Origin: Candidatus Alloenteromonas pullistercoris
GTDB lineage: Bacteria; Bacillota_I; Bacilli_A; RFN20; CAG-826
NCBI GenBank assembly: GCA_017694295.1
Contig: JADINA010000033.1
Coordinates: 1-54,077, forward strand
Length of the DNA: 54,077 nucleotides
Direction: 5' to 3'
The notes beneath the pieces were generated by a model. The model saw only the letters and a program-made list of their open reading frames with translations, was not told where the DNA came from and did no database searches. A program made the translations under genes and the position numbers. Numbering within the stretch: position 1 is the stretch's first letter; each line of letters begins with the position of its first letter. Below, piece after piece: positions 5,701-44,286 of the stretch.

Positions 5701-5791
5701 TGGCGGAGGAATAGGGATTCGAACCCTAGCTCCCGGTTAAGAGACTACGAGCTTTCCAAGCCCGCCCCTTCGACCACTTGGGTATTCCTCC
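5701..5791 (-). tRNA. tRNA-Ser (anticodon GGA)
   Basis: Class II tRNA of 91 nt with an encoded CCA (5701-5703). The acceptor stem is GGAGGAA/TTCCTCC, the anticodon arm is CGGGC-TTGGAAA-GCTCG giving GGA, there is a long variable arm, and a GGTTCGAATCC T-loop. It reads UCC/UCU serine codons. Confidence 0.97.
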
Positions 5792-19959: not shown

Positions 19960-20051
19960 TGGCGGAGAAGCGGGGATTCGAACCCCGGCTGGAGCAGGGC
20001 CCCACTATCAGTTTTCGAAACTGACCCCTTCAACCGCTTGGGTACTTCTCC
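19960..20051 (-). tRNA. tRNA-Ser (anticodon CGA)
   Basis: Class II tRNA of 92 nt with encoded CCA. The acceptor is GGAGAAG/CTTCTCC, the anticodon arm TCAGT-TTCGAAA-ACTGA gives CGA, with a long variable arm and a GGTTCGAATCC T-loop. It reads UCG. Confidence 0.97.
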
Positions 20052-20262: not shown

Positions 20263-21999
20263 ATGTGGGAGAAAACCGTCGAAATCCTCGCTGCCTATTG
20301 GGCCCCGTTGCCAGTCACCATCATCTTGATTGGCGGGGCCATCGGCTTGACTGTGGCTTTTTTCATCTCCCGGTACCGCGACAAAAGATATGCCAAGGCG
20401 ATGGATGAATCGAAGAACGCGGTCGCCATCTTTCTTATTGATTTGAGCGCGGATAAGGTATTGAGCTTCAAGTCGAGCTCGATTGGGAAAATAAAGAAAA
20501 GCAGCGTCTCCGAGTTTTACGCCAATTTCCTCCCCGATGAGCGCCAACGCGTCATAGATTGGATCGAGGCGCTTTTATCCAAAGGCGAATCGGCCCCCGA
20601 TTTCCTTGAGACCGGGGTGGTGTCCAACCCCAAGACGCGAAAACAGTATTTTTATATGCTCCAAGCCGACCACGTCGACAAAAAGCGCCAGGTCATCCAT
20701 TTGGAGCGCCATAAGATCAAATACCTAATCCCCAAAGGCGTCCCGAAGGACTTCAAGGGGCTTAGCAGCGGCAAGGCCGCCCTTGACGCCATCTCCGAAT
20801 GCAAGGGCAAGGGCTTCACCGCCTGCTTCCGCTTCCAATACCGCCGCATCGCCGACAAGGACGAGCCCATCGATCCGATCGTCTGGGCCCACGTCAAACA
20901 AATCATGTACGGCCTTACCCTCAATAGGCGTTACCTGCTTGAGGCCTCGGGCAACGAGCTGCTCGTCGTCGACTTGAAGATATCGTCCAAGACGCAGGCT
21001 ATGTTTTTCGTGAAGTCGTGTCTGGCCTCGGTCAACCGCTACCTATCCCTTTCCGGCTATTTGAGCCGTCTTGACATAAGGATCGGGATGGTGGGGCACC
21101 AATATTATGACGGCAAGGCCGAGGCGATCCTCGATTACGCCCGGAAAACCGCCCAAATAGCCTTCGACGACGAAGACCCGGTCATGGTCTATGAGAAGGG
21201 GAGGAAGTCGCTTAACCCCCTTAACGACGCCGCCTACCGGACCGAGGTCGAACGCATCATCAACGAGAAGAGGCTTCGCTACCAGTTCAGGCCCGTCTAT
21301 TCGGTTAAGTCGAGGCGGGTCATCGCCTATTCCCTGCGCGTCACCCCGACCGACACCTATTTCGATTCGATGGATGAGTTGAAGGACTATGCCACCAGGA
21401 CCGACGACCTCGGCTCGCTTTTCTCCACCGTCGCCCGCAACTCGATGCCGCTATTCATCGCCGAAAGAAGCGACGAGAAGGAGTCGATATTTTTCCCAGT
21501 CCGGGTCGATGAAAGGCCGTATATGCTCACGACCTTCGCCCGCATCCCCAAGGCCAAGACCTCGCGCGTCGTCTTCCTTTACCGCGAATCCGACATAAAA
21601 GCCCATTTTAATCCCCAGCATCCGGGGACGGTTATGGAGGACATGCGCTCGATCAGGGCCAAGGGATACCAAGTCGCCCTTGAGCTTGACGAGGGGGAGC
21701 TTGGCCTCCCCGATTCGGTTTACCACGCCTTCGACTTCTTCGTCTGCGACTTCAACTTCGCCGGCAGCGCCAAAAACATGGACGCCCTGGTAAGAAGCCA
21801 AATGCACGTATTGGTCGAGCGGCTGCTTAAATACGAAAAACCCATCGTCGCCAACGAGGTCGAGGGCTGGCCTTCGCTTGAGCTTCTCGTCCGCAGCGGC
21901 CTTCTCTACATCTCCGCCGAATGCTTCGCCCCCTATTCGGAGATGATTCAGCCCGTCTCCCCCAAATCGATAAAGAAAGTCGACGAATTCCTGCGTTAA
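20263..21999 (+). CDS. Membrane protein with PAS-like and degenerate GGDEF/EAL domains
   Basis: 578 residues. One membrane helix (about 16-37) leads into a PAS-like region (about 45-155), a GGDEF-like region (about 165-310) whose active loop reads SGNEL (229-233) instead of GGDEF, and an EAL-like region (about 325-578) where the EAL site reads YSLRV. The C-terminal EAL landmarks survive in weak form: FFVCDFNFAGS, VANEVEGWPSLELL and AECFAPYSEMIQPVSP. Both catalytic motifs are lost, so this is likely a c-di-GMP-independent structural or sensory protein, or a nucleotide-binding sensor. This reading rests on spaced motif resemblance by eye. It precedes proS by 45 nt. Confidence 0.6.
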   Translation: MWEKTVEILAAYWAPLPVTIILIGGAIGLTVAFFISRYRDKRYAKAMDESKNAVAIFLIDLSADKVLSFKSSSIGKIKKSSVSEFYANFLPDERQRVIDWIEALLSKGESAPDFLETGVVSNPKTRKQYFYMLQADHVDKKRQVIHLERHKIKYLIPKGVPKDFKGLSSGKAALDAISECKGKGFTACFRFQYRRIADKDEPIDPIVWAHVKQIMYGLTLNRRYLLEASGNELLVVDLKISSKTQAMFFVKSCLASVNRYLSLSGYLSRLDIRIGMVGHQYYDGKAEAILDYARKTAQIAFDDEDPVMVYEKGRKSLNPLNDAAYRTEVERIINEKRLRYQFRPVYSVKSRRVIAYSLRVTPTDTYFDSMDELKDYATRTDDLGSLFSTVARNSMPLFIAERSDEKESIFFPVRVDERPYMLTTFARIPKAKTSRVVFLYRESDIKAHFNPQHPGTVMEDMRSIRAKGYQVALELDEGELGLPDSVYHAFDFFVCDFNFAGSAKNMDALVRSQMHVLVERLLKYEKPIVANEVEGWPSLELLVRSGLLYISAECFAPYSEMIQPVSPKSIKKVDEFLR

Positions 22000-23623: not shown

Positions 23624-23716
23624 GGAGGCGTACCCAAGAGGCCGAAGGGGGCAGGTTGCTAACCTGTTAGGTCGGGTTTACCCGGCGCTCGGGTTCAAAT
23701 CCCGACGCCTCCGCCA
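23624..23716 (+). tRNA. tRNA-Ser (anticodon GCU)
   Basis: Class II tRNA of 93 nt with encoded CCA. The acceptor is GGAGGCG/CGCCTCC, the anticodon arm GCAGG-TTGCTAA-CCTGT gives GCU, with a long variable arm and a GGTTCAAATCC T-loop. It reads AGC/AGU. Confidence 0.97.
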
Positions 23717-24100: not shown

Positions 24101-26461
24101 ATGAACAACAGAAAGCTTCTCATTCCGATGGCCGCCGCCTTGCTCGCCTTGGCCGGCTGCGGGCCATCAGGCTCATCCGATTCCTCGGTAACGGATGGGG
24201 CCTCCTCCTCTCCAGACTCCTCGCTACAGACAAGCGAGGAATCACCTTCCTCTTCTGAGGAAACCATCACCGATTCGCCTGAGGAAAGCGATTCGGAGCA
24301 AACCTCCTCAAGTGAGGTTGCGGATTCCGAAGAATCATCTTCTAGCGACGTCACCGATTCCGAAGAGCCGGTTGGCCCAGAAAAAACGATCGACCAAGCC
24401 CTCCTCGACGAATGGGCTGAAGCCTCAATCGACTTCGCCGGGACCCTAACCGACACCTTGTACACCACCTTGACGGACATCGTCGGGTTTATCGGCAAAA
24501 ACACCTATTCGATGCTTGAGACCGACGGCGAGTATGTTTACGTCGACACTGTTGTATATCGCGAGGAAGGCACCAATTACGCGGCCTATTACTCGCTTTT
24601 GCTCGATAACACGGTCGAGACCCAATATTATGTCGACGGCTACGCCATCTCCGATTTCGACGAATTGGTCTATAATCCATTCGCCCTTTTGACCGAAGCC
24701 GATCTGACCGAAACATCCGAGGGGGTCTATTCGATAGCTTCCGAAAAGCTTTCCGATTTCGGGTATCCGCTTTGCCCCTATGTGCTAGAAAACGTCTCGA
24801 GCATTACCCTGGAAAGGACCGATGACGTCATCGCGCTTGAGCTTATTTCGTCCTATTCGGATTATGGCGAGATTTATAACCTCAACCTCTCCTATGAACT
24901 TAAAATTTCCGAAACCACGGATTTGGCCGTCCCTACGCCCTATGCCCATGAGGATTACCATGACGCAGTCGGCACCGCCTTGACCGCCTGGGACGCTGCC
25001 TTGGGCGGGGAAGGCGATGAAACGGGCTATGTGCTGAATAAGACGCTGACGCCAGTCGATGAGCCGTCCCTTCCCGTCGCCACCAGCCAAACCATCGTCA
25101 CCTCCAACGCCATCCTCATCAAAAACGACGGCGGCATCACCTCCGATAACGATTGGGGCTATGCCGTCTATGACGATGGGGAGGTTTACGAATTCGAGAT
25201 AGTCGATGGAGCGCCGGTCCAAGGCGAAGCCTTAGAAGCCCAGTTGCCCCTTCCCCTCCCCGGGGAGATAGCCCCTGAGCTATTTGAGGAAACCGAAGAA
25301 GAGGGCGTCTATGCCTTCCGCGACGATTCCTTGGCCTTATCCGCCATCATCTGGCTCGTCGAGGATCCGAACCTCCTTTCCCTTATCCAATACTTCGGCG
25401 TCGCCGACAACCTGACCATCACCATTGAAGGCGGGCTTGTCACCGGTTATGCCTTCGATTACATGTCGATGGGCATCGGAAGCTATTACATCGAGCACTG
25501 CGAAGTCGAAATCGCCGAATTCGACACCGCCACCATCGATTACGAGTTCGTCGTCCCCTCGGCTGAGCCAGTCGACCTTTCTACCCTTGCCGGGACCTGG
25601 ACCGGGACGATGATTGCAACCAGCGACGTCTATACCATCGTCATCGGCGAAGATGGGACGGCGACCCTCAATGGGGAAGCAGCGACCATCGAAGGCGAAT
25701 ATGACCGTTGGAACAATCTCGTCGGAACAATCGTAAGCGATACTTACGACCTTGGCTTCGAGTATTACCCGGCCTATGAAGAGATATGGATTTATTCTGA
25801 CGATTATACCGTAAACGTCAGGTTATATAAGGAAACCGGCGGCGTTGAGGATCCGGTAGCGATCCCCGAGGCGATGATCGGGACCTGGCATGCCGAAACA
25901 GTCAGCACCAACATCGAAGGGGCCGATGGGCCGGTTGACCTCATCATCGGCGAAGAGGAAATAACCCTTAACGGCGTTGTCGCCGAGCTGACCGATATAA
26001 GCGAATCCAGCGGCTCGGTTTATGCGACCTTGACCTCCGGCGGTCTCTCCTACGAGTTGACCTATAATCCGGCCCAAGGCGATTGGGGGGCCCAAATCTC
26101 CTTAAGCTATGGCGCGGAGACATCCGATGGCTATGAATACTATAACGCCAACCTAACGCTTGTTGAGGAAGGCGGCGGGGCCATCGAATTGGATCCGCAG
26201 TTGGTTGGGACCTGGGTTGGGATCGACACTAACACCGACGAAGAGCATACCCTCGTCATCAACGCCGACGGAACCGGCACCTTCGATGGTGTCACCTTCG
26301 ATGACCCCATCGAGTTCACAGCATTCCTCCTCGGATATCAAGCCACCTTCACCATAGGCGGGGTCGAATACGAGATCAGCTTCCTTGAAGCCTCGATTGG
26401 CAATCCCTACATGCGCGTGTCCAACGACGACGTCAACGTTGATTGCTATCCGGCCGAATAA
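24101..26461 (+). CDS. Large repeat-containing surface lipoprotein
   Basis: 786 residues. The lipoprotein signal MNNRKLLIPMAAALLALAGC has its lipobox Cys at residue 20. A Ser/Glu/Asp-rich stalk (about 22-95) follows, then a long extracellular part rich in beta strand and aromatic residues. The last 290 residues hold three repeats beginning LAGTWTGTM (about 497), MIGTWHAET (about 593) and LVGTWVGID (about 703), each followed by a VIGEDGTATLNG-like hairpin, resembling lipocalin-like beta-barrel repeats. Ser/Glu stalk lipoproteins of this kind are typical of gut Bacilli. The ligand is unknown. AAAGGA precedes the ATG, and it has its own strong promoter and terminator. Confidence 0.85.
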   Translation: MNNRKLLIPMAAALLALAGCGPSGSSDSSVTDGASSSPDSSLQTSEESPSSSEETITDSPEESDSEQTSSSEVADSEESSSSDVTDSEEPVGPEKTIDQALLDEWAEASIDFAGTLTDTLYTTLTDIVGFIGKNTYSMLETDGEYVYVDTVVYREEGTNYAAYYSLLLDNTVETQYYVDGYAISDFDELVYNPFALLTEADLTETSEGVYSIASEKLSDFGYPLCPYVLENVSSITLERTDDVIALELISSYSDYGEIYNLNLSYELKISETTDLAVPTPYAHEDYHDAVGTALTAWDAALGGEGDETGYVLNKTLTPVDEPSLPVATSQTIVTSNAILIKNDGGITSDNDWGYAVYDDGEVYEFEIVDGAPVQGEALEAQLPLPLPGEIAPELFEETEEEGVYAFRDDSLALSAIIWLVEDPNLLSLIQYFGVADNLTITIEGGLVTGYAFDYMSMGIGSYYIEHCEVEIAEFDTATIDYEFVVPSAEPVDLSTLAGTWTGTMIATSDVYTIVIGEDGTATLNGEAATIEGEYDRWNNLVGTIVSDTYDLGFEYYPAYEEIWIYSDDYTVNVRLYKETGGVEDPVAIPEAMIGTWHAETVSTNIEGADGPVDLIIGEEEITLNGVVAELTDISESSGSVYATLTSGGLSYELTYNPAQGDWGAQISLSYGAETSDGYEYYNANLTLVEEGGGAIELDPQLVGTWVGIDTNTDEEHTLVINADGTGTFDGVTFDDPIEFTAFLLGYQATFTIGGVEYEISFLEASIGNPYMRVSNDDVNVDCYPAE

Positions 26462-26936: not shown

Positions 26937-28208
26937 ATGGATTTCAGTTACAAGCATCGCATCGCCGATGAGATATTGGTTGGAAAGCTTGCCTCAAAAG
27001 GCGCTGTTTTAATTGAGGGGTTGAAATGGTGTGGCAAGACGACGACGGCAAGAATGCACGCAAAAAGCGTTCTCCTAATGGATGAGGAAAGGCAAAACAA
27101 CATCGCTTTGGCTGATTTTGCCCCTTCCGCCCTCCTTGATGGCGAAACGCCGAGGCTGATCGACGAATGGCAGTTGGCCCCCAAACTTTGGGATGCGGTT
27201 CGTCTCGAAGTCGATAAAAGGCAAAAGATGGGCCAGTTTATTTTGACTGGGTCGACAACCCCCTATTCGAGGGAGGAGATTCATCATAGCGGGACGGGTC
27301 GCTTCACCAGGCTTCTAATGAGAACGATGAGTTTGTTCGAATCGCTTGATTCCAATGGTTCGGTCTCCTTGAAAGGGCTTTTCGAATCGCCATCCCAAAT
27401 CCGGGGCAAGGCGGAAATCGATATAAGAAAGCTTGCCTATCTTGTTTGCCGGGGCGGTTGGCCGATGGCCATCTCCCTAAGCGAAAGCGATTCGCTAAAG
27501 CAGGCATTTGATTACGTCGATGCGCTTATTGAATGGGATTTGAAGCGACTGGGCGGGATATTTTCCAATACCCAGCGCGCCCGAAAGATAATGCGCTGCT
27601 ACGCTAGGCAGCAGGGGACGCAGGTAAGCGACAATAAGCTGCTTGACGATATCGCTTCCGGCGCTTCCGGCGCATTCTCGATAAAAGCATTAGGAACTTT
27701 TCTCGCGGCCTTAAACGACATGTTCGTAATCGAGGAAATGCCAGCCTGGAGCCCAAATCTACGATCAAAAACCGCAATTAGGAAAGCCAACACCCGTTAT
27801 TTCTCAGACCCCTCAATCGCCACGGCTTCCCTAGGCCTAGGCCCCGGCGATTTGCTAAGCGACTTGAATACCTTCGGTTTGCTTTTTGAGGCGTTGGCGA
27901 TTCGCGATCTGCGCATCTACGCCGAAGCGCTTGATGGGAGCGTCTACCATTACCGCGATAAAAGCGGGCTCGAGTGCGATGCCGTAATCCATTTGAGAAA
28001 CGGGAAATACGGCTTGGCGGAAATCAAACTCGGAGGCGATAGGCTTATCGAGGAGGGGGTTAGGAACCTTAAGAAGCTTTCCTCAACCATCGACTTTGAA
28101 AAAATGGGCGCGCCCTCTTTCCTCGCCGTCATAACCGGGGTGGGCGATTACGCGTATATGAATGGCGACGGCGTTTGCATCGTCCCCATCGGGGCGTTGC
28201 GTGATTAA
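26937..28208 (+). CDS. AAA-family ATPase with DUF4143 domain
   Basis: 423 residues. The N-terminal P-loop domain has Walker A GLKWCGKTTTA near residue 29, Walker B RLIDEWQ near residue 72, and the sensor strand FILTGSTTPY. The C-terminal DUF4143 region ends in a PD-(D/E)XK-like pattern (GLECDAVIHLRNGKYGLAEIKLG). These ATPases are common, patchily distributed accessory genes of unknown role, sometimes linked with mobile or toxin loci. The copy stands alone behind three repeats, a sign of specific control. AAAGGAGG precedes the ATG. Confidence 0.88.
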   Translation: MDFSYKHRIADEILVGKLASKGAVLIEGLKWCGKTTTARMHAKSVLLMDEERQNNIALADFAPSALLDGETPRLIDEWQLAPKLWDAVRLEVDKRQKMGQFILTGSTTPYSREEIHHSGTGRFTRLLMRTMSLFESLDSNGSVSLKGLFESPSQIRGKAEIDIRKLAYLVCRGGWPMAISLSESDSLKQAFDYVDALIEWDLKRLGGIFSNTQRARKIMRCYARQQGTQVSDNKLLDDIASGASGAFSIKALGTFLAALNDMFVIEEMPAWSPNLRSKTAIRKANTRYFSDPSIATASLGLGPGDLLSDLNTFGLLFEALAIRDLRIYAEALDGSVYHYRDKSGLECDAVIHLRNGKYGLAEIKLGGDRLIEEGVRNLKKLSSTIDFEKMGAPSFLAVITGVGDYAYMNGDGVCIVPIGALRD

Positions 28209-33057: not shown

Positions 33058-34416
33058 ATGAATTCGCTTAAGCACAAACAAAAGGACATAGCCCCGAAGC
33101 CCCATCTTGCGGAAGGGGAGCTGAAGGCCTATTTGGACCATACAAGCGACAACGAGCTTGAGATCCTTTCCTCCTCGAAAGTCGGCTGCCTTTCCTGCGG
33201 GGCCGTCTATTCAGCCCGCGACGTCCACGATTGGGCCGATGAAGGCGGGAAGATGAAAGCCGTCTGCGCCCATTGCGGGCTCCCGACCGTCGTCGGGGAC
33301 GCATCGGGGCTCAAAATCGACAAAAAATCCTTGGACCGCCTCCGCCGGCAGCCCGGCTACAAAGCCTTCGACGAAAGCAACATCGAGGCCATCCGCGACT
33401 TCTGCGCTCGCTACGCCGAGGGGAAGATCGCCGAGGACGCCAAAAACGAGGAGCTTTTCCTTTTCTACTGCCAAAAGCTTTGCAAGCAGCACGACCCGAT
33501 CGCCATCATGGACCTCGCCGATTTCTATATGCGCGGCGGGATGTCCGGAAAGCCCGATTACGACAAGGCATTAAGCTATTACGAGCTCCCCGAGGTCGCC
33601 TATAGCCCCCTCTCCCTCATCAACAAGGCCATCATCTTCAAAAGGGGATCGGCCAAGCGCAAGCCCAACATCGCCAAATGCTGCGATTCCCTTGAAAAGG
33701 CGGCTTTATTGGGCTCGGTCAAGGCCCGTTACATGCTTTCCGACCTCTACACCGTCGGCGATGGCAAGCGGGAGGACCCCTTCTTCGCCTTCTCGCTTTT
33801 GGAATCCTGCTACAACTTCGCCTATCCGGTTTATCTGAAGAAGGGCTTCGACCCCGACGCCGATTTGGGCGAGATCGCCATCCGCCTCATGCAGCATTAC
33901 TATTACGGCATCGGGACGCCGGTGGACATGGACGCGGCTTTGGCCTTCGCCATGGTCTTCACCTTCTGCCTCGCTTTGAACAAAGGCGAATACTGCGACG
34001 CCGTCCTCGACGAGGTCGACGCCATCCTCTCCGACGTCTCCAAGAAAAGGGGCTACACCTTCGGCGAGCTCGTCCAGGATTACGACACCTTCAACGATTC
34101 GCTCTACCTCATGCCCGAATCGATGCTCAAGCACATCGGCAAGCTCGATTTCAACCAGAAGGAGGGCACGCTTTCGTTTTCCCTCAATTGCCTTTCCCCC
34201 TTCCTGCTCGTCGATTTGGCCAATTTGTCTGTCAAGCGGGTCAACAAAGGGGCGACATTCGTCTTCGACCGCGTCGCCTCCATCCAAATCCAGGAGCCCC
34301 GGACGCCCGTTTCCTTCAACTACTCGATCGCCGAGGATGGGAGCCTTTCCTTTTATCGGCTCGACGAGGATGATCCAATCGCCACCATCTATTTCAAAAA
34401 GGATGGCGAGCAATGA
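33058..34416 (+). CDS. Zinc-ribbon and Sel1/TPR-like repeat protein
   Basis: 452 residues. A zinc ribbon near the N-terminus uses CLSC (Cys44/47) and CAHC (Cys70/73). Residues about 140-320 are Sel1-like helical repeats (DPIAIMDLADFYMRGG; VKARYMLSDLYTVGDGK; IAIRLMQHYYYGIGTPVD). A C-terminal beta-rich domain (about 370-452) has no assigned family. Sel1 repeats scaffold protein complexes. The gene is coupled (ATGA) to a two-gene ABC exporter, suggesting it assists or regulates that exporter. No Shine-Dalgarno is evident before the ATG. Confidence 0.75.
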   Translation: MNSLKHKQKDIAPKPHLAEGELKAYLDHTSDNELEILSSSKVGCLSCGAVYSARDVHDWADEGGKMKAVCAHCGLPTVVGDASGLKIDKKSLDRLRRQPGYKAFDESNIEAIRDFCARYAEGKIAEDAKNEELFLFYCQKLCKQHDPIAIMDLADFYMRGGMSGKPDYDKALSYYELPEVAYSPLSLINKAIIFKRGSAKRKPNIAKCCDSLEKAALLGSVKARYMLSDLYTVGDGKREDPFFAFSLLESCYNFAYPVYLKKGFDPDADLGEIAIRLMQHYYYGIGTPVDMDAALAFAMVFTFCLALNKGEYCDAVLDEVDAILSDVSKKRGYTFGELVQDYDTFNDSLYLMPESMLKHIGKLDFNQKEGTLSFSLNCLSPFLLVDLANLSVKRVNKGATFVFDRVASIQIQEPRTPVSFNYSIAEDGSLSFYRLDEDDPIATIYFKKDGEQ

Positions 34417-36140
34417 CCTCGCTCTCCCCTTTGAAAAAGCATCGCTTCGCCGTTTTGGCTGCCCCGTCTTTGAAGGTCGTCGAATGCGTTTGCGAGCTCA
34501 TCGTCCCCTTTTTGGTGAAAACCATCATCGACGAGGGGCTTAGCGAGGACGGGTCGCGTTATGGGGACGTCGGCTATATCGTCTCCATCGCCCTCATCGT
34601 CCTCGCCTTAAGCGTCCTGGGCTTTCTCGCCACCATGGTCACCCAATATGTCGCCTCGCGCGTCTCAACCGATTATGGCTATGAGCTTCGCAGGGAGGTT
34701 TACCGCCAATTCGGGTCGCTTTCCTCAAGCCAGATAAACGATTACGGCCGTTCCAAGGCCCTTAACCTCCTCAGCTCCGATTCCTTTTCATTGCAAAACG
34801 GCGTCTTCATGTTCATGCGGTTGCTCGTCAGGGCGCCTTTCCTCACCATCGGCTCGATCGTCATGTCCTTCGTCTTGAACGTCTATGCCGGGATCGCCGT
34901 GCTTTCCGCCTTGCTTTTGTGCGCGCTTACCGTCGCCATCGTCATGGCCAAGACCCCGAAAGGCTATGTTGCAGTCCAATCCGGATTAGACGAGCTCACC
35001 AGTTTAGGCGAAGACGGCGTCATGGGCGCAAGGGTGATCAGGACCTTCAACCTGCAGGAAAAATCCAAAGCCGAATTCGCCGCGAAAAGCGAGGAATACA
35101 AAAGGAGGAGCGATTCCCTTTCCTTGGTCAACGCCATCGTAAACCCCCTGACCTTCGGGCTGGTGAACCTCGCCATCGTCGCCGTTTTCTACCTGGGTTC
35201 ATATCAGTTTTCATTCTCTGGCCTCTCCTCGGGCTCGATCGTCGCCATCGTCTCCTTGCTCACCCAGGCTTTGACCGCCCTCATTCAGTTCAGCCGCCTT
35301 GTGACCTCGCTTTCGAAGGCCTTCGCCAGCAAAAGGAGGCTTGACGGCTTCCTGGCCTTGGAAAATTGCCTTAAGGACGGGGAAAGGGACTTGCCTGAAG
35401 TCCAACAGGGGGAAACCCTAATCGAGGCCAAGGGCGTAAGCCTAAGCTATGGCGGGGAATCCAATGCCGTCGATCGCGTCGACTTCCTCCTTCGCAAAGG
35501 CGAAAGGATCGGGATACTAGGGGGGACGGGCTCAGGCAAATCGAGCCTGCTCTCGCTTCTTCTTCGCTTCAATGACCCCAGCGAAGGTGAGCTTTGTTTT
35601 GGCGGAATCCCTTATGCCGAACTCAATTCCGATGACATCCGCGCCCAAATAGCCATCGTCTTCCAAAAGCCCCAGATATTCGAGGGGACGGTTTATTCCA
35701 ACGTCGCCTTAAGCGACCCGGAGATGGGGGAGGAGCGGGTCAATTGGGCTTTGGAGCAGGCGCTTTGCACCGAATTCGCCTCTTCTTACGAAGACGGGAT
35801 GAGCCACCACATCGAGGAAGGCGGGTCCAACCTCTCGGGCGGGCAAAGGCAAAGGATATTGATCGCCCGGGCCTTGGCCTCGCGCCGGAGCATCCTCATC
35901 CTCGACGATTCCACAAGCGCCCTCGACTACAAATCGGATTTGCTCATAAGGCAAAACATCGCCGCCATAAAGGGGATATCGACCATCATCGTCTCCCAGC
36001 GGGCGACTTCGATAAAAGACTGCGACCGCATATACGTCTTCGACAAGGGGGCGATAGTCGGGGTCGGGACGAATGAGGAGCTATTGGAAAGCTGCCCGAT
36101 ATACCGCGAGACGCTTCAAGCCCAGGTGGACCAAAGATGA
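34413..36140 (+). CDS. ABC exporter half-transporter A (degenerate ATP site)
   Basis: 575 residues: six-helix type IV exporter domain (about 1-320) and an ATPase domain (about 335-575). Walker A is GGTGSGKSS, the signature is canonical LSGGQRQRILIARAL, but Walker B ends LILDDSTSALD with Asp instead of the catalytic Glu, and the H-loop reads VSQRATS with Gln in place of His. This is the pattern of the inactive-site subunit in heterodimers such as TM287/288 or BmrCD. ATGA overlaps couple it to the gene on each side. The substrate (drug, peptide or lipid) is not predictable. Confidence 0.93.
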   Translation: MTSLSPLKKHRFAVLAAPSLKVVECVCELIVPFLVKTIIDEGLSEDGSRYGDVGYIVSIALIVLALSVLGFLATMVTQYVASRVSTDYGYELRREVYRQFGSLSSSQINDYGRSKALNLLSSDSFSLQNGVFMFMRLLVRAPFLTIGSIVMSFVLNVYAGIAVLSALLLCALTVAIVMAKTPKGYVAVQSGLDELTSLGEDGVMGARVIRTFNLQEKSKAEFAAKSEEYKRRSDSLSLVNAIVNPLTFGLVNLAIVAVFYLGSYQFSFSGLSSGSIVAIVSLLTQALTALIQFSRLVTSLSKAFASKRRLDGFLALENCLKDGERDLPEVQQGETLIEAKGVSLSYGGESNAVDRVDFLLRKGERIGILGGTGSGKSSLLSLLLRFNDPSEGELCFGGIPYAELNSDDIRAQIAIVFQKPQIFEGTVYSNVALSDPEMGEERVNWALEQALCTEFASSYEDGMSHHIEEGGSNLSGGQRQRILIARALASRRSILILDDSTSALDYKSDLLIRQNIAAIKGISTIIVSQRATSIKDCDRIYVFDKGAIVGVGTNEELLESCPIYRETLQAQVDQR

Positions 36141-37861
36141 AAAGGAAGAGAATCGCCTTGATTTTGCCCTATCTTAAGGGCTCGTATGGGCTGTCTTTGG
36201 CTTGCTTGCTTTTCGCGACCCTCTCGGTTGGGGCGAAGATGGCCATCCCCTTCCTCACCGGCATGGCGATCGACCACCTTGAGGAGGGGAACTTCGACAT
36301 CGCCTATTTGCTTTTCGCCTGCCTTGGGCTATTGCTCGTCGGCTCTTTATTCCGTTACCTATTCGACATGTCGCTTTCCTTCCTTGGCAATAGGGTGGTC
36401 AAGAAAATGCGCGATGAGCTCTATGGCAAATACCTCCGCGCCCCGATTTCCTATATTGACTCCTCCTCCCATGGCGATTTGATCCAGCGGCTAATCGCCG
36501 ACGTGGAAAACGTCCAAACCGGCCTCATCACCGGGGCTGGGGCCCTATTTGAGGGCGTCATCATGATCGTCGCCACCTTGGCGTTTATGTTTTACCTCCA
36601 TTACCTATTGGCATTGCTCGTCGTCTTGTTGACCCCGATATCGGTGGTGGTCAGCAAATTCATCTCAAGCCGGAATAAGCGCTACTTCGCCACCCAAAGC
36701 AAGAAGCGGGGCGTGCTTAACGCCAACGGGCTCGAAAGCATGAACAACCTCGAATCCATAAAGGCCTATGGGCTCTCAGCTAGGCGCGAAAAGGAGCTCG
36801 AGGAGGTTAATCTGGCGGTTACGGACGCCAACTTCAAAGCCTCCTTCGCCGCCTCCTGGATCAACCCCGGGACCAGGTTGGTCAATAACCTCATTTACGG
36901 CCTCGTCATCCTGGTTGGGGCCTATTTGGTCATAGCCGAGGTCGACCTTGGGGTCGCCTTCTCGGTCGGGGCGCTTTCCTCCTTTTTGACCTACGCCCTC
37001 CAGTACATGACGCCATTTAACGAAATCGCCGACGCCGCGAGCGATGTCTTCTACGCCCTAACCTCGCTTTATAGGATCGATGAGGCGCTTTCTTCGCCCG
37101 ATGACCTTGACGAAGGCAAAAAGGAAATAGATGGCTCCATCGATTCGCTTGAGGCCAAAGGCATCGATTTTTCCTACGCCCCGGGGCAAAAGATCATCTC
37201 CAACTTCAACCTCGACGTCTACAAAGGCCATAAAATCGCCTTGGTCGGGCCCACCGGATGCGGCAAGACGACCGTCATCAATCTATTGATGCGCTTCTAC
37301 GACGCCGATAAAGGCGGGTTTTATTTCAACGGCATCGATTCCCGCGAGCTTTCGAAAAAAATGATGCGCAGCCACATCGGCATGGTCCTCCAGGATAGCT
37401 ATCTGAAGCATGGCACCGTCAGGGAGAACATCGCCCTCGCCCGCCCCGAAAGCAGCTTCGAGGAAGTGGTGGAGGCCGCCAAAAAGGCCAGGGCCGACGA
37501 CTTCATCCGCCGGCTACCGCAAGGCTATGACACGGTGGTTGGCAATAATAGCGGACTCTCGATGGGGGAGAAGCAGCTTCTTTGCGTCGCCCGCATCATC
37601 CTCGACGCCCCGGAGATCGTCTTGCTCGACGAGGCGACCTCCAACATCGACTTGCTCACCGAGCTACGGCTTTCCAAGGCCTTCGATGAGCTTATGAAGG
37701 GGAAGACGAGCTTAGTCGTCGCCCACCGCCTCTCGACCATCAAAAACGCCGATTACATCCTCGTCATGAAAAAAGGGGAGATCGTCGAATCCGGAAATTT
37801 CCAGGAGCTTATGGAGCTAAACGGCTTCTTCGCCGAGCTTTATAATTCCCAGCTTTCCTAA
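36137..37861 (+). CDS. ABC exporter half-transporter B (catalytic ATP site)
   Basis: 574 residues, partner of the previous gene. A six-helix membrane domain is followed by an ATPase domain with Walker A GPTGCGKTT, a degenerate signature LSMGEKQLL (normally LSGGQ), Walker B VLLDEATSNID with the catalytic Glu, and H-loop VAHRLST. Its Walker residues plus subunit A's LSGGQ give the single active site; the other site is degenerate on both sides, a clean heterodimer. The stop shares CTAA with the convergent GNAT gene. Confidence 0.93.
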   Translation: MKRKRIALILPYLKGSYGLSLACLLFATLSVGAKMAIPFLTGMAIDHLEEGNFDIAYLLFACLGLLLVGSLFRYLFDMSLSFLGNRVVKKMRDELYGKYLRAPISYIDSSSHGDLIQRLIADVENVQTGLITGAGALFEGVIMIVATLAFMFYLHYLLALLVVLLTPISVVVSKFISSRNKRYFATQSKKRGVLNANGLESMNNLESIKAYGLSARREKELEEVNLAVTDANFKASFAASWINPGTRLVNNLIYGLVILVGAYLVIAEVDLGVAFSVGALSSFLTYALQYMTPFNEIADAASDVFYALTSLYRIDEALSSPDDLDEGKKEIDGSIDSLEAKGIDFSYAPGQKIISNFNLDVYKGHKIALVGPTGCGKTTVINLLMRFYDADKGGFYFNGIDSRELSKKMMRSHIGMVLQDSYLKHGTVRENIALARPESSFEEVVEAAKKARADDFIRRLPQGYDTVVGNNSGLSMGEKQLLCVARIILDAPEIVLLDEATSNIDLLTELRLSKAFDELMKGKTSLVVAHRLSTIKNADYILVMKKGEIVESGNFQELMELNGFFAELYNSQLS

Positions 37862-38391
37862 AATAGACTTTCCGAGCATAGGCCTGTTTTCCTAAACGGC
37901 TTAGCCATCAGCATCAGCGTCTTGTCGGGGAAATCGAGGTCGGTCCCTTCGTCGACGATGAAATAGCCTAGCGAGGAAAAGAAGGACAAAGCCGGTTTAT
38001 TGAAACGGGAAAGGAGGGCGAAATAGCTTCCCTTCCCGAAATAGGAGAGCAAGCCGTTATGGAAGTCGCGGCCTTTATGGCGCCTCCAATAGGCCGGATC
38101 GATGACAAAGGCGTTGAATAAGACGATCCTTTCCCCCGAATAGGAGATTTTCTCAAGCAGGGCCGTCGTCTTCGCCGCGGCATTCGTTTTGAATAGGGGT
38201 TCAAGCGAGTTCGATGCGTCGGCCACCCCGATTAACCTGGCCCCGTCTGCGTAGACGTAAAGCCCGTCCCCTGGCTTGTAATAATGGGAAAAGGGCGGGA
38301 GGCCATCGTATCCCATCCCCTTTTCCGCCCTTCCGAGGAGCTTTTGCACGTTGGGGAGGTCGCTATCCTTCGCTTTGCGCAATCTTTCCAT
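37858..38391 (-). CDS. GNAT-like N-acetyltransferase
   Basis: 177 residues resembling the GNAT fold: an N-terminal MERLRKAKDSDLPNVQKLL start (typical 'lR-a---Dl--i--l'), a central LYVYADGARLIGVADAS strand pair, and FVIDPAYWRRHKGRDFHNGLL, where the acetyl-CoA pyrophosphate loop normally reads Q/RxxGxG/A. That loop is only partly conserved (RRHKGRD), so activity is uncertain. FSSLGYFIVDEG near the end is the common C-terminal strand. The substrate is unknown. It has its own minus-strand TACAAT near 38428-38423. Confidence 0.7.
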   Translation of the reverse strand: MERLRKAKDSDLPNVQKLLGRAEKGMGYDGLPPFSHYYKPGDGLYVYADGARLIGVADASNSLEPLFKTNAAAKTTALLEKISYSGERIVLFNAFVIDPAYWRRHKGRDFHNGLLSYFGKGSYFALLSRFNKPALSFFSSLGYFIVDEGTDLDFPDKTLMLMAKPFRKTGLCSESLF

Positions 38392-38445: not shown

Positions 38446-41400
38446 ATGTTCAAATTTGGCGATAACCTTAAAAACGGGACTAGGGCCCGTTTGAAGTTCG
38501 ACTTTGCCAAAAACGTCGACGCCAACCCCCGGCTCGACGCCGATTTCCTTATCCCGAGGCTATCCCTCTCCGATTCGGTTTTGCTTTTCCCGAGCCTCTT
38601 CAAGATCCCAGAAAGCGACCTAGCCGAACTCGAGGACTTTCACCTCGAGGACTGGGTGATCCTCGCCTATTCGGAAAACGCTAGGGGCGATGTGAAAAAC
38701 GTCTTAATCGCCCATTTGGGCGGGCTTTTGCCGGCTTATTCGGTCCTTTATCCCTCCATGGAGGTGAAGTTTGCCATCAATGAGCCCTTCGCCATCTTGG
38801 CCTCCGGGGCCTTTTATGGCTTTGAGGAGCTTAAAAGGATTTTCGATGAGCCCTCCTATGCCCCTCCACCCTCTTTTCTTAAACCCGCCGCCCGCTTGGC
38901 CTTGCCCATAGATGGCGGGGAAGAAAGCGAAATCGAGCGGGTCCAAGTGGACCGGCCTAGTTTCTCTCCACCTAGCAAGGCTAAGCCCAAAAACCTCGGG
39001 GGATACGCCTATTCGCGGAAAGAAGAGCCGGATGAGGGAGGGTATGATGTCGACGTCAATAGCCTTAAGGCCTCCTTTTCCCCTTCTTCGAAACATAAGC
39101 CCGGGGTCATAAAAGACGCTCCGAAGCTCTCTTTTAAAAAGGCGAAGGCCAGCGTCGACCCCAATTCGTTTAAGCAGCCCTTCGTCGGGCAAAGCAAAGC
39201 CGCCATCCCAAATTTGAACAGTAACCCCAATTTCCGCAAAGGGGGGACCGCGCCCACCCTTGCCAAAAGCGTCCCCCATTACGATTTCAAAGTCGGCTCG
39301 ACCCCGGCCACCGAGCGATTTTTCGCCTTAGCCGGCCCTTTCGCCGATTTGCGGCTGCGCTCCCTAATTGAGGATAGCCTCCGCTACGCCTCCCCCAAGT
39401 TCGCCCAAAATTGCTTTTATTGCCCGGGTTACCCGGAAAAAGGGGATCCGATTTTCGATTTGCTTGCCCATTTCGACATCGACGAATGGGCGGTCCTCGC
39501 CTGCTTGGGGTATGAAAGCGGCGATCCATTCCTCGCCCTTATTTGCCTTAAGGGCAACCCGGACGTCTGCCTTTCCCTTTTAGTCGGCGGGAGGCATAGC
39601 GTCCTCGGCTATTCGCGCAAGGGGATGTTTATAAATGGCAGCGGCTATAAAAACTCCGCCTACTATTTCCGCCTCTATTCCGATGCCAAAGCCAACCTCG
39701 CCAGCAAGGAGGAGGGCAATGTAAAGAAAGAAGAACCCCCTAAGAAGGAGACGGAGCCGGAAAAGGCAATGGAAAGCGTTTTGCCGCATATTGGGGAGGA
39801 AGAAACCGAGGAGGAGGAAATAGACTTCGGGATCGCCGAGCAGCGCCGACTTTTCCAAACCTTCCGCTTCAAAGACGACTGCAAAACCCTCATCGGCAAG
39901 CACCCCGAGGCCGAATCCGAGCTTAGCCGGATTTCCATTGACCTCCTTTCTCTTTCCTCCCCCTCCTTAACGCAGTTCCTTGAGGCCAGGCACAACAAGC
40001 AAATAGACGGCATTTCGAAGTTCCGGCTTAAAAAACCCGCCTATTCGGCCGCCCGCATTTTCTATATCCACGGCTATGACGCCCATCATTACCCTGCCCT
40101 TTCCTCCCGTCTTTTCCTCCCTAGCGACATCATCCTCCTTTCCATTTGCTTCCCCGAGGATCATGACCGGCAAGGGGAGGTCGCCAAAGGGCTAAGCAAA
40201 TACCTCCTTTCCGCCAAATCGGTTTTGCTTGAGAGGTCGCTACTAGAGAAAGGCGGGGGCAAGGTCGATTCGATCGCCTATCCGAGCTATGAGCAATTCG
40301 CCCTCCTCCGCGATCCTTCCTCCCACCCGCCTTTGGCCTTCTTTGGCTCAGCCGGAACGGGGAAGACGATACTTTCGCTGCAAAACTGCCTTGATTTAGG
40401 CGGAATCGGCGACATCATCTACTTAACCTACGAGCCGAGTTTAAGGGATTTCGCGGCCAAAAAGCTTTCCGAGCTTGGGGAGGAAAACGTTAAATGCCTC
40501 ACCTACGCCGAGCTGGCCTTGGATGAGCTTGGACCCTATTTGGTCGAGGGGGAGAACGACTTCCATTCCTTCTTCGCCTCCTATATTTCGGCTAGGCCCA
40601 AATTGGGGAAAACCTTCGCCGCGCTTGGCTCGAGCCTTCCCGATCAGGCCTCGAGGGCCTATTTGTTCTATCGGGGCGTCATAACCGGGTGCCGCGAATG
40701 CGCGGATAGTCCGTCGATGATGTTAAGCTATGAGGAGTTTGCCAAGAAGATGGAAGGGGAGGCGGGGCTCCCGGGCCAATTGCTTCGCCCCCTTTATAGC
40801 CTCGCCCTCGATTACCGCGACCATCTGCTTGAGTCGGGAAGGCAAACCGACAACTCGCTTGCCTGCATGCTTCTTGGCAAAAAAAGGCGGACGCTTGCTT
40901 GCAAGGCCCTCGTCATCGACGAATACCAGGATCTCACCGAGCTGCAGTTTTGGTCGCTTTTGCCTTATCTAGGCGAGCAAAACGCCGCCTCCATCCCCCT
41001 TTACATCTACGGGGACGAGAACCAATGCGTCAACCCGACAATCTTCTCCATCCCCAAGGCCAACGCCGCTTTGCACGATTATTTCCATTACCCAATCGAA
41101 CTTTCCGAGCGCAGCCTCGATGGCTCTTACCGAAGCGGCCCCAATTTGCTTTCCTTCATCAACCGCCTAAAGGACCTCAAGAAGAAATCGATCGGCAGCC
41201 AGCGCCAGGAGCTTGAAACCAAGGAGACGACTTTGCGCAGCGACCAAGACGACCTCTTCGTCGCCTATTTCTCCTTCCATTCCCATTTCGCCTCCATCGT
41301 CGCCATGGCCTTGGAAAGCGATGACGACATCGTCTTCGTCTTCCCCTCCCCGCTAAGCCGCGATAATGCCCTAAAAGGGCTAGACGAGGAATTGAGGCCA

Positions 41401-42180
41401 TACGCCGAGTCCAACTTCCTAACTGTCTCCGAGTCGAAGGGAAGGGAATGGGATTGCGTCGTCCTGGTTGACTTCCTAAGCGAATTCGGGGAGGACTTCG
41501 CCCTCGCCTTGCAAGAAAAATCCGGCCATTCCTCGACGGTCCACCGGATGATGTTCAATCGGCTCTACGTCGGCTTGACCCGGGCCAAAAACCGGATATT
41601 CCTTTTCGAGACGAATCCCCCTGCAAAGTCGGAGGAAGTCGTCTATGGCGGGTTGGAGCGGATCCCCGAGGGCGAACTTCATAGCCTTTTCTGCGGCCAC
41701 GTCGACCCCGACCACTGGATGGCCCATGGGGAGAGGCTATTGCGCGAAGGCGATTACGAAGGGGCCAAGCGGGCCTTCGAGAGGCTTGAGGGCGAAGAGG
41801 GCAAGGAAAGGGCGAGGGTCGCCGGGGAGTATTGCCGATACGAACGGATGTGGGGCAGCCGGAAGCAGGGGCAGAACTTCGAAAGCGGCTATATCGATTT
41901 CCTGCTTTCCCGGCGCGATTACCGCAAGCTCCACGATGTTTATAATCGCCTCAACCTTACCAACAAAGCCCTCTTCCTCGAGACGGCCTTGAATAGGCAT
42001 GAGCCCCGCGACCAGGACATCCTCCCCCTATTCAGGAAGATAGTCGACAAGTCGACCTTCTTGGAGAAATCCACCTTCTTCGAGTTGGCCGCCAGTTGTC
42101 TTTCCCGGCGCTTGCTAGGGGAGATAACGATGGCGAAAATAGCGATAGAGGCAAACAAAAAGGAAAAAGGAGAAAGATAA
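38446..42180 (+). CDS. Giant SF1 (UvrD-like) helicase with duplicated N-terminal domain
   Basis: 1244 residues. The C-terminal half is a UvrD/Rep-type helicase: motif I GSAGTGKT (634-641), motif II VIDEYQDLTE (about 821), GDENQCVNP, SYRSGPNLLSF, VSESKGREWDCVVLVD and motif VI YVGLTRAKNRI (about 1042). After it comes a helical TPR-like tail. The first 500 residues are unlike ordinary UvrD: two copies of one domain (around Trp70 and Trp348) joined by a low-complexity linker, then an acidic linker. Residues about 505-585 resemble a RelE/ParE-type fold, as seen fused to some SF1 helicases. The start at 38446 is the first ATG after an AAGAGG. It is coupled to the two genes downstream. Confidence 0.85.
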   Translation: MFKFGDNLKNGTRARLKFDFAKNVDANPRLDADFLIPRLSLSDSVLLFPSLFKIPESDLAELEDFHLEDWVILAYSENARGDVKNVLIAHLGGLLPAYSVLYPSMEVKFAINEPFAILASGAFYGFEELKRIFDEPSYAPPPSFLKPAARLALPIDGGEESEIERVQVDRPSFSPPSKAKPKNLGGYAYSRKEEPDEGGYDVDVNSLKASFSPSSKHKPGVIKDAPKLSFKKAKASVDPNSFKQPFVGQSKAAIPNLNSNPNFRKGGTAPTLAKSVPHYDFKVGSTPATERFFALAGPFADLRLRSLIEDSLRYASPKFAQNCFYCPGYPEKGDPIFDLLAHFDIDEWAVLACLGYESGDPFLALICLKGNPDVCLSLLVGGRHSVLGYSRKGMFINGSGYKNSAYYFRLYSDAKANLASKEEGNVKKEEPPKKETEPEKAMESVLPHIGEEETEEEEIDFGIAEQRRLFQTFRFKDDCKTLIGKHPEAESELSRISIDLLSLSSPSLTQFLEARHNKQIDGISKFRLKKPAYSAARIFYIHGYDAHHYPALSSRLFLPSDIILLSICFPEDHDRQGEVAKGLSKYLLSAKSVLLERSLLEKGGGKVDSIAYPSYEQFALLRDPSSHPPLAFFGSAGTGKTILSLQNCLDLGGIGDIIYLTYEPSLRDFAAKKLSELGEENVKCLTYAELALDELGPYLVEGENDFHSFFASYISARPKLGKTFAALGSSLPDQASRAYLFYRGVITGCRECADSPSMMLSYEEFAKKMEGEAGLPGQLLRPLYSLALDYRDHLLESGRQTDNSLACMLLGKKRRTLACKALVIDEYQDLTELQFWSLLPYLGEQNAASIPLYIYGDENQCVNPTIFSIPKANAALHDYFHYPIELSERSLDGSYRSGPNLLSFINRLKDLKKKSIGSQRQELETKETTLRSDQDDLFVAYFSFHSHFASIVAMALESDDDIVFVFPSPLSRDNALKGLDEELRPYAESNFLTVSESKGREWDCVVLVDFLSEFGEDFALALQEKSGHSSTVHRMMFNRLYVGLTRAKNRIFLFETNPPAKSEEVVYGGLERIPEGELHSLFCGHVDPDHWMAHGERLLREGDYEGAKRAFERLEGEEGKERARVAGEYCRYERMWGSRKQGQNFESGYIDFLLSRRDYRKLHDVYNRLNLTNKALFLETALNRHEPRDQDILPLFRKIVDKSTFLEKSTFFELAASCLSRRLLGEITMAKIAIEANKKEKGER

Positions 42181-42181
42181 A

Positions 42182-42628
42182 ATGGAAAACGCCGACGACA
42201 AGCTTATCAAAACCCTAGGGGCCTTAGAGTCCCTAGGCGAGGACATATCCTCGATTAGGGAAGCCGAGGAACTATTCTCCGCAAGGATCGAGCAGATGGA
42301 AGACGCGATGGAGGGGCTCCACGCCAAATCCGGCGATCTTAAACGGCAGCTCGACGCCTTTAGCTCACTGCTAGAGAAGGAAGAAGACAACGTCAAAAAA
42401 ATCGAATCGCTTTCCCAAACCTTGGAAAAAGCCGCCAAGACGCTTTCCTCCCTCGATTTAGGGGGATTGGCGGAGCAAACCGAGGCGCTCAATAAGTCCA
42501 TCAAGGGGCTTGAAGAGGCTTTGAAGCAGCTTGACAAAGACGATGAAGCGGGGAAAAAGGAGAAGAAGGGCGGAAAAGCCCCAACGCTTAAAAACGCGCT
42601 CAAGAAAGGGGCGAAGCGCGGGAAATGA
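42182..42628 (+). CDS. Coiled-coil protein, hypothetical
   Basis: 148 residues, almost entirely heptad coiled coil (about 5-122) and then a Lys-rich tail (KKEKKGGKAPTLKNALKKGAKR) that could bind nucleic acid. No signal or membrane segment. It starts one base after the helicase stop codon, using the AAGGAGAAAG inside the helicase end as ribosome site, and its own stop overlaps the next ATG (ATGA). This tight coupling implies that helicase, coiled coil and Vsr-Nudix are made in fixed ratio and probably form a complex. Confidence 0.75.
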   Translation: MENADDKLIKTLGALESLGEDISSIREAEELFSARIEQMEDAMEGLHAKSGDLKRQLDAFSSLLEKEEDNVKKIESLSQTLEKAAKTLSSLDLGGLAEQTEALNKSIKGLEEALKQLDKDDEAGKKEKKGGKAPTLKNALKKGAKRGK

Positions 42629-43605
42629 GCCGCGATCCCGCGATCGTCTCGAAGACGATGTCGCGCATAAAAGGCCGGGACACCGGAATCGAGAGGAAGC
42701 TTCGTCGAAAGCTATCCGAAAAGGGACTTCATTACCTCGTCTGCTCGAAAAAGGCCTTTGGGCATCCGGATATCCTTTTCATTAAGGAGAAGGTCGCCGT
42801 CTTCGCCGATTCGGAGTTTTGGCATGGCTATAACTTCGACGTGGCAAGGGAAAAGATAAAAAGCCACCGCGACTATTGGATAACGAAGATAGAAGGCAAC
42901 ATTAGGCGCGACCAATTGGTCAACAAGACCTTGGAGGGACAAGGCTATAAGGTGATGCGCTTCTGGGGGTTTGAGATTGGTGAGGACCTAGACGCCGTCG
43001 TAAACTCGATCGCCTTGGAAGTGGGGAAAAGGAGAAAGGCCATCGAAGCGGCCACCCATCCAAAAGAGAGGACGACCCTTTCCTATTACGAGAAAGAAGG
43101 CAAGACCCTTTTGCTTTACCGCGACAAGAAGGAAAACGACCTAAACGAAGGCAAATACGTCGGTATCGGCGGCCATATCGAAAAGGGCGAGTCGATCGCT
43201 CAAGCTGCTAAGCGCGAGTTCAAGGAGGAGACCGGGATGGAGGTGACATTGCAGCATTACCGGGGCAAAGTCGATTTCGTTGACCTCAGCCAAAACCCCT
43301 CTTATGCCGAAAGGATGTACCTTTTCCGGGTCGTTGGGGCGAAAGGGGAATTAAGGGAATGCGATGAGGGGGAGCTAGGATACTTCGACACCTCCAAGCT
43401 AAGCAGCCTCCCGATGTGGGAGGGGGACCGATTGTTTTTGCCACTTGTCAACGGAAGTGAAACCTTCCACCTCCTTCTATGCTACGAATCGGGCCGCCTG
43501 GCCTTCTCCATTCCCCTTTCCGATAAAGTCAATTCAAAAAAGAAGGCTATGAAGCGGGGCAAGCAAGGAAAAGGGAAAGGCAAAAAAGAGGAAAAAACCT
43601 CTTGA
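42625..43605 (+). CDS. Vsr-type endonuclease fused to a Nudix hydrolase
   Basis: 326 residues. The N-terminal part (about 1-135) is a very-short-patch-repair endonuclease: MSRIKGRDTGIERKLRRKL (RDT-IE motif), GHPDILF with catalytic Asp49, FADSEFWHGYNF (FWH motif) and WITKIEGNIRRDQ. The cysteines and His of the E. coli Vsr structural zinc site are not conserved. Residues about 150-290 form a Nudix domain with a perfect box, G183-x5-E189-x7-REFKEETGM. A Lys/Gly-rich tail ends the protein. Vsr nicks T:G mismatches; Nudix (MutT-type) enzymes clean damaged nucleotides. No cytosine methyltransferase lies nearby. Confidence 0.88.
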   Translation: MSRDPAIVSKTMSRIKGRDTGIERKLRRKLSEKGLHYLVCSKKAFGHPDILFIKEKVAVFADSEFWHGYNFDVAREKIKSHRDYWITKIEGNIRRDQLVNKTLEGQGYKVMRFWGFEIGEDLDAVVNSIALEVGKRRKAIEAATHPKERTTLSYYEKEGKTLLLYRDKKENDLNEGKYVGIGGHIEKGESIAQAAKREFKEETGMEVTLQHYRGKVDFVDLSQNPSYAERMYLFRVVGAKGELRECDEGELGYFDTSKLSSLPMWEGDRLFLPLVNGSETFHLLLCYESGRLAFSIPLSDKVNSKKKAMKRGKQGKGKGKKEEKTS

Positions 43606-43635: not shown

Positions 43636-43685
43636 TGCCCTAAGGAGGCCCGACCCCTAGCCCTCCTCGGGGCTTTTTGTTTTAT
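43636..43685 (+). ncRNA. Candidate short RNA or attenuator
   Basis: From the predicted start a transcript of about 45-50 nt runs into a terminator (AGCCC/GGGCT plus a T-run, 43659-43685). GGAGG (43645-43649) could instead pair with CCTCC (43662-43666 region), an alternative fold. It lies between the Vsr-Nudix operon and the next gene. Unproven. Confidence 0.4.
43659..43685 (+). terminator. Terminator after the helicase/Vsr operon
   Basis: Stem AGCCC/GGGCT with a 6-nt loop, followed by TTTTGTTTT. Confidence 0.7.
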
Positions 43686-43731: not shown

Positions 43732-44286
43732 ATGGATATAAAAGTCGATCCGCAACAAAGCTACGAGGAGGGGAAATCCGCCGGCTATTTGCTTTCTTGC
43801 CTCGATAAGTGGGCCAAGTTTTCCTCCGTCCCCGCCAAATTGCTTTTCGCCGCCTTCTCGCTTTTGCCTAAGCAACTTACCCAAGGGGCCTATTTGGACC
43901 TTTCCCTTTCGGTCTTTTGCCGCGTCTTGGATTCGCGTTGCCTATTCGCCGAAGAGCCAAAAAGCCAAATCCCGGATTGGGGCGAGGTTAAGGACGCCCC
44001 CAACAAGGAGGCTTTGAAGTCGCTTGCCGATTTGCTTATCGCCAAGGAATGCCTTGAGCTATCTGAAAAACTTGGGCTTGAGCCGCTAGAATGCCTTTCC
44101 GCCTCCTGCTTCCTCTCCGGCTCCTTTTACGAGGGCATAGCCGATGGGTATATGGAAGAGGGGGAAGGAAAAGCGAAGGCGGTCGAGGCCTTTACCTCCC
44201 TTTATGGGGGAAGCCGGGAAAACAAAGCCCATTTCCAGGAATTGCTATCCGCATTGGAAAGGATTTACCAGGAATCGCAAATATAA
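43732..44286 (+). CDS. Hypothetical helical protein
   Basis: 184 residues, family not recognised. Predominantly helical and soluble, with no signal peptide; hydrophobic stretches such as AKLLFAAFSLLPKQL and PLECLSASCFLSGSFYEG are too short or polar for membrane spans. It ends in an acidic Glu/Gly turn (DGYMEEGEGKAKAVEAF) and a C-terminal helix. Translation start context is poor. It precedes aminopeptidase P by 15 nt, so the two probably form an operon; the link gives no clear role. Confidence 0.7.
   Translation: MDIKVDPQQSYEEGKSAGYLLSCLDKWAKFSSVPAKLLFAAFSLLPKQLTQGAYLDLSLSVFCRVLDSRCLFAEEPKSQIPDWGEVKDAPNKEALKSLADLLIAKECLELSEKLGLEPLECLSASCFLSGSFYEGIADGYMEEGEGKAKAVEAFTSLYGGSRENKAHFQELLSALERIYQESQI

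Follow-up and report, generated by a model that had tools for sequence, protein, structure and literature searches.

The window analysed here, 54,077 bp long, is the whole of contig C24 (JADINA010000033.1) of a 1.42-Mb metagenome-assembled genome of Candidatus Alloenteromonas pullistercoris (G000, 87% complete), which belongs to a genus of little-known, uncultured bacteria. Between positions 38446 and 43605 its forward strand carries three genes, designated A, B and C, which we tentatively read as a mutation-avoidance operon. Gene A (38446-42180, 1244 aa) encodes a UvrD-like helicase with a long N-terminal region, gene B (42182-42628, 148 aa) a coiled coil with a basic tail, and gene C (42625-43605, 326 aa) a fusion of a Vsr endonuclease with a Nudix hydrolase. 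Genes A and B are one nucleotide apart (TAA, A, ATG) and genes B and C overlap by ATGA; the gap and the overlap were read directly from the sequence and confirm the tight coupling described in an earlier, sequence-only reading of the window. The superfamily 1 (SF1) helicase, the coiled coil and the Vsr-Nudix protein of that reading were likewise recovered by Pfam and NCBIfam matches, by motifs and by the presence of 12 lysine or arginine residues among the last 30 of gene B. Three further features of gene A, described below, had escaped that reading: a RelE-fold domain, a duplicated N-terminal domain and an array of short motifs.

The Vsr-Nudix fusion and its distribution

The Vsr endonuclease domain of gene C (aa 1-125, 42625-42999) scored above the curated cut-offs of both TIGR00632 (100.7 bits, cut-off 97.85) and PF03852 (63.3 bits, cut-off 27), and the MTH1/MutX-like Nudix domain (aa 148-293, 43066-43503) above that of PF00293 (53.6 bits, cut-off 21.1). 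The MutT equivalog TIGR00586 was matched at 20.3 bits, below its cut-off of 97.9, which leaves gene C outside that group. In the PDB the Nudix half matched MTH1-type 8-oxo-dGTPases best and the Vsr half matched DNA-bound E. coli Vsr; of the five plasmid records that matched the Nudix half best, three were annotated as 8-oxo-dGTP diphosphatase and two carried no annotation there. Residues E23, D49 and H67 correspond to the catalytic E25, D51 and H69 of E. coli Vsr (PDB 1cw0). Although relatives of gene C are only ~50% identical, E23 and H67 were found in all 15 aligned rows of Vsr relatives, D49 in 14 of the 15, and the Nudix box GHIEKGESIAQAAKREFKEETGM (aa 183-205, 43171-43239) in all 11 fused rows. 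With catalytic motifs intact and these residues conserved among relatives, both halves look active, and the most likely role of gene C is that of a bifunctional enzyme for mutation avoidance, the halves of which, judging from family membership, would act on DNA mismatches and oxidised deoxynucleoside triphosphates (dNTPs), respectively.

Besides the catalytic residues, gene C has equivalents of F67-W68 of E. coli Vsr, a pair with functional roles in that enzyme. The positions aligned with C66, H71 and C73 of the E. coli protein, its zinc ligands, are occupied by E, Y and F. H64 is replaced by D (D62); according to the Caulobacter VsrA paper (PMC12907096), functional Neisseria Vsr proteins carry D at the equivalent position. 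Gene C further differs from E. coli Vsr in its fusion to a Nudix domain and in lacking an association with C5-methyltransferases. As in 8-oxo-dGTP diphosphatases of the MTH1/MutX type, the Nudix box is intact, and W265 and D268 occupy the positions of the W and the second D in the base-recognition stretch (W117 and D120 of MTH1); unlike those enzymes, gene C belongs to a nuclease fusion, and its 8-oxo-dGTPase role is a predicted one.

Of the 31 genomes of the window genus, 29 have the fusion and two (G102 and G424) are without it; among the 13 best genomes it was found in 12. It adjoined an ABC-transporter pair in 19 of 23 placeable genomes, six further fusions (G145, G414, G416, G417, G419 and G420) lying too close to a contig end for placement. 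Other genera of the family have the Nudix half alone (40-53% identity), and genus g24 has the Vsr half alone (47-59% identity). This lone Vsr follows Sel1-ABC-ABC genes, as in the window, at all seven g24 loci fetched, and the same setting was absent from all eight lone-Nudix loci examined. Parsimonious explanations are that a lone Vsr at the ABC place was later joined by a Nudix domain, or that the fusion came first and g24 lost the Nudix half; the tree does not decide the order of the two forms. A contig scan that requires exact short peptides, and hence misses distant copies, returned 49 relatives of gene C, ten of them spanning both domains and nine of these ten from the window genus. The tenth (L061, from a horse faeces metagenome) groups with g24 in the tree, so the fusion may extend beyond the window genus. 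Among the open-licence papers listed by literature searches on Vsr-Nudix/MutT fusions and on RelE-UvrD helicases with coils, none dealt with the present combination, which agrees with the earlier statement that no named system with this gene content was known.

The helicase, the coiled coil and their relatives

Gene A begins with an uncharacterised N-terminal domain (NTD1, aa 1-135, 38446-38850), a second copy of which (NTD2, 39301-39640) was recognised by profile comparison (probability 97.6%, E = 4.4e-12). Between the two copies stand short motifs of the type FxxxSxKKPRNL, namely FSPPSKAKPKNL (aa 173-184, 38962-38997), FSPSSKHKPGVI (aa 211-222, 39076-39111) and FVGQSKAAIPNL (aa 246-257, 39181-39216). 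At least two copies were counted in 15 of 21 rows and one copy in the other six, compared with averages of 0.01-0.07 and a maximum of two in shuffles, a count that is not independent because the pattern was derived from the very proteins counted. Beyond NTD2 and an acidic linker, both of low confidence in an AlphaFold model of part of gene A, structure comparison of the model places a RelE/ParE-fold domain (aa 465-592, 39838-40221) N-terminal to the helicase; by sequence this domain had no match in PDB or Pfam, the structure model being its sole support.

The UvrD-like SF1 helicase core (aa 634-1048, 40345-41589) has motifs I to VI in order, exceeds the cut-offs of PF13538 (30.4 bits, cut-off 27.4) and PF13245 (27.2 bits, cut-off 25.1) and is followed by a C-terminal part. 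Its best PDB profile matches were HelD and FBH1; for HelD_BACSU, however, gene A reached 16.1 versus 419 bits, and the N-terminal architecture differs. The idea that gene A might be the PcrA/UvrD of its genome was rejected, since a separate PcrA-like gene is present in 27 of 31 window-genus genomes, the window's included (480-832 bits, none above the cut-off of 911.2). The best PADLOC profile was GajB (3.4e-13), followed by AbiO (4.7e-9) and Nhi (3.2e-4). All three share a UvrD-like helicase with gene A, but the matches are partial, and the partners here are a coil and Vsr-Nudix rather than anything GajA-like, so the operon does not qualify as Gabija.

The coiled coil of gene B gave many weak profile matches of low specificity. 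When a profile of the helicase half was searched against 296 genomes of the class, 14 had matches at E < 1e-20, and in all ten matches outside the family a coiled-coil gene lies directly downstream of the helicase (seven by weak profile match, three by sequence reading). In genus g49 (L189-L192) a RelE-type UvrD helicase and a coil occupy one chromosomal place in four of four genomes fetched, with 62-83% identity between the helicases and 29-55% between the fast-evolving coils. Within the family, a second helicase-coil pair in G044 (L117, contig C41, 6620-12357) stands directly behind AddA/AddB-like genes, its helicase being 1776 aa long with a longer N-terminal region, and two further pairs lie outside the operon on short contigs. 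The helicase-coil pair is older than the A-B-C operon. A tblastn search of 50,697 phage records with the helicase gave no matches; at least one weak relative was among the matches listed from an IMG/VR scan, and plasmid matches were distant, the two inspected having no adjoining coil.

Helicase-type A, B and C stand in a row in 15 of the 29 fusion genomes, the window included (three of the 15 cut by the contig end within A), and B and C of G414 lie at the end of a contig; the co-occurrence elsewhere on which the sequence-only reading had staked its proposal was therefore found. A short A without the helicase is present in six fusion genomes (G127, G139, G017, G044, G094 and G115, with another gene preceding C in the last two), gene A is absent from three (G422, G410 and G413), and the arrangement was unassigned in four (G121, G145, G420 and G423). 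The trees of the helicase and of gene C have four clades in common: {G409, G000, G133, G065, G081}, {G417, G109, G419}, {G421, G425} and {G411, G412, G415, G418}. They conflict over the long-branched G416, which falls into the second clade only in the gene C tree, and over G121, which falls into the fourth only in the helicase tree.

Repair genes and neighbourhood

MutS1 was not detected above the cut-off in any of the 31 window-genus genomes; 29 of them had only C-terminal MutS matches, of a size that we take MutS2 to give. Across the 146 genomes of the family, MutS1 was present in 20, with a fragment in one more (G087). For comparison with the distribution of this Vsr, its presence was defined as at least 45% identity over the Vsr half, giving 13 window-genus and seven g24 genomes and leaving out weaker matches in G006, G013, G047 and G096. 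By this definition MutS1 occurred in none of 20 genomes with this Vsr and in 20 of 126 without it, a difference that is not significant (p = 0.076) and involves few lineages. MutY-level scores (> 270 bits) were obtained in 17 and UDG-family genes in 28 of the 31 window-genus genomes. A complete 8-oxo-guanine pathway is not supported, MutY being patchy and missing in the window clade.

Upstream of the operon, a gene for a Sel1-repeat protein and two ABC transporter genes (33058-37861, forward strand) form a syntenic flank together with ORF177 (37858-38391, reverse strand), an open reading frame (ORF) that looks acetyltransferase-like by eye only and has no Pfam match. A terminator-like hairpin with a T run follows gene C (43659-43674, forward strand), although a single such hairpin is weak evidence, given that the scan observed 21 sites with 13.8 expected in shuffles. 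Next comes a 184-aa ORF (43732-44286, forward strand) that has no Pfam or NCBIfam match; close relatives keep it 3' of gene C, with 33-37% identity.

In a Pfam scan the annotated neighbours were ordinary genes. PADLOC returned partial ABC-ATPase matches (mad3, mad8) around the operon and, ~10 kb upstream, a DUF4143/AAA_14 ATPase (26937-28208, forward strand) matching PDC-S01 at 197 bits, the sole full-length PADLOC match among ten scanned neighbours. Elsewhere on the contig, ORFs of 578 aa (20263-21999) and 786 aa (24101-26461), both on the forward strand, had no Pfam match at 1e-5, and the only tRNA genes in the 54 kb were three for tRNA-Ser (5701-5791, 19960-20051 and 23624-23716; anticodons gga, cga and gct).

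Interpretation of the operon

The presence of the fusion in nearly all window-genus genomes, its recurrent ABC setting, the lone Vsr at the same place in g24 and the four clades common to both trees point to a chromosomal locus that is mainly inherited vertically. The reading that we favour, with somewhat less than even confidence, is that A-B-C forms a mutation-avoidance operon of this kind with a borrowed helicase pair. In known very short patch repair, as described in PMC12907096, a Vsr nick is followed by the action of a helicase and Pol I. In the operon, the Vsr half would nick T:G or comparable mismatches, with no methylase dedicated to it, and the Nudix half would hydrolyse oxidised purine dNTPs prior to incorporation. 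Where present, helicase A and coil B would unwind from the nick and a DNA polymerase would resynthesise the strand; that A and B assist C in the way UvrD acts on a Vsr nick is suggested by gene order and co-inheritance and is less certain than the assignment of gene C. The duplicated N-terminal domain and the repeated basic motifs of A could serve as a docking scaffold, and the RelE-fold domain might contact RNA or ribosomes, or control helicase activity, which is the weakest step. We regard as improbable the bolder proposal of a MutS-independent mismatch avoidance, in which, in bacteria lacking MutS1, one protein would both clean oxidised dNTPs and nick mismatches irrespective of 5-methylcytosine, and a dedicated, motif-tethered RelE-UvrD helicase-coil would remove the nicked strand.

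Several observations weigh against a mutation-avoidance operon. MutS1 absence has no specific link to Vsr-Nudix, since most of the family is without MutS1, and MutY, which one would look for alongside an 8-oxo-dGTPase, was not found in the window genome or in G133, G065, G081 and G409, all of which gave weaker Nth-level matches only. In one Vsr-Nudix fusion (L056, 6001-6897) the catalytic D49 is changed to asparagine, the rest being kept. Four of the 23 placed fusions are found in other settings (G109, G121, G423, and G127, in which only ORF177 is kept), and at least nine of 29 have no adjoining helicase, so the operon is not one indivisible unit. It is hard to see what a RelE fold would do in mismatch repair. 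Compared with G133, G065 and G081, the N-terminal half of gene A is only 33-34% and gene B 37-39% identical, versus 73-74% for ABC2; such fast divergence is frequent among conflict proteins, and the 184-aa ORF downstream of gene C diverges as fast. Finally, two helicase-coil relatives in the family lie within candidate defence islands (L118 and L119), one beside PDC-M33A/B/C with methylases, a D12 methylase among them, and the other beside TmtA and PDC-S41. Together with the fixed place in g49, these islands indicate that the helicase-coil pair can be either a fixed element of the chromosome or a component of a defence island.

The closest counterpart of A plus C is ARMADA type II (PMC12458937). 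There, a RelE-like domain sits on the GajB-like UvrD helicase (ArmD), which is essential for antiphage activity, a predicted active Vsr-type nuclease is carried by another subunit, the YprA protein ArmC, and all four genes are required. In the window operon, too, a RelE-like domain precedes a GajB-like UvrD helicase, and a Vsr nuclease belongs to it as well. Its Vsr, however, is on the Nudix protein, it has a coiled-coil partner and a motif array in addition, and ArmA, ArmB and ArmC are not among its neighbours, in which the Pfam scan likewise showed no BrxHII-like helicase, PglX-like methylase or YprA helicase. An antiviral defence operon working much as ARMADA does, in which the RelE-UvrD helicase-coil would sense or unwind invading DNA or RNA and a Vsr-Nudix effector would nick DNA and deplete or edit nucleotides, is to our mind somewhat unlikely. 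GajB as the best profile of A, the make-up of ARMADA type II, the island-borne relatives, helicase N-terminal domains that vary between lineages and the rapid change of A all favour it. Set against these are a fusion too constant for a typical defence gene, the lack of strong defence neighbours, the broad agreement of the helicase and Vsr-Nudix trees, the fixed g49 pair and the absence of tblastn matches in phages. A mobile defence island was rejected for the window locus on its conserved setting, agreeing trees, ordinary neighbours and PADLOC result. Of the earlier proposal of a repair or defence operon, the repair part fits gene C well, whereas defence lacks support at this locus; it survives through the two island-borne relatives and the RelE-UvrD helicase essential to ARMADA. 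A defence function stays in play, given how fast A and B change, the RelE fold and the resemblance to ARMADA.

It is unlikely that the genes are two independent cassettes under a shared promoter, with C a stand-alone repair or sanitising enzyme and A-B a separate helicase pair, immune or RNA/ribosome-related in function. C does stand beside a helicase-less A or without A in several genomes, pairs of the A-B type occur without C, and G121 has A and C on different contigs with other neighbours each; but the 1-nt and ATGA coupling, the gene order shared by 15 genomes and the same N-terminal region of A preceding C even where the helicase is missing argue against such independence. Very improbable is the view of the locus as what remains of a dcm-vsr restriction-modification or very-short-patch system that has lost its methylase or has it unlinked. 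Vsr elsewhere goes with C5-methyltransferases, the window genome has one (contig C33), and in Caulobacter the members of a functional Vsr-methylase pair are unlinked (PMC12907096). No C5-methyltransferase was found among the annotated neighbours of the operon, though single genomes may have an unlinked cognate; such genes occur in only 11 of 31 window-genus genomes, and across the family in eight of 20 genomes with this Vsr (one a fragment with a stop) versus 50 of 126 without it (p = 1.0). The relic was rejected on this distribution, C5-methyltransferases being neither linked to nor co-distributed with the fusion as dcm-vsr very short patch repair would require.

If the mutation-avoidance reading holds, dNTP sanitising and mismatch nicking, two classical routes of mutation avoidance, would be united in one polypeptide, which may bear on how bacteria without MutS1 hold their mutation rates down. 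The RelE-fold UvrD helicase and its coil represent a broad, unnamed two-gene family, a fixed pair in some genera and a defence-island part in others, and as such bear on the sharing of parts between repair and immunity.

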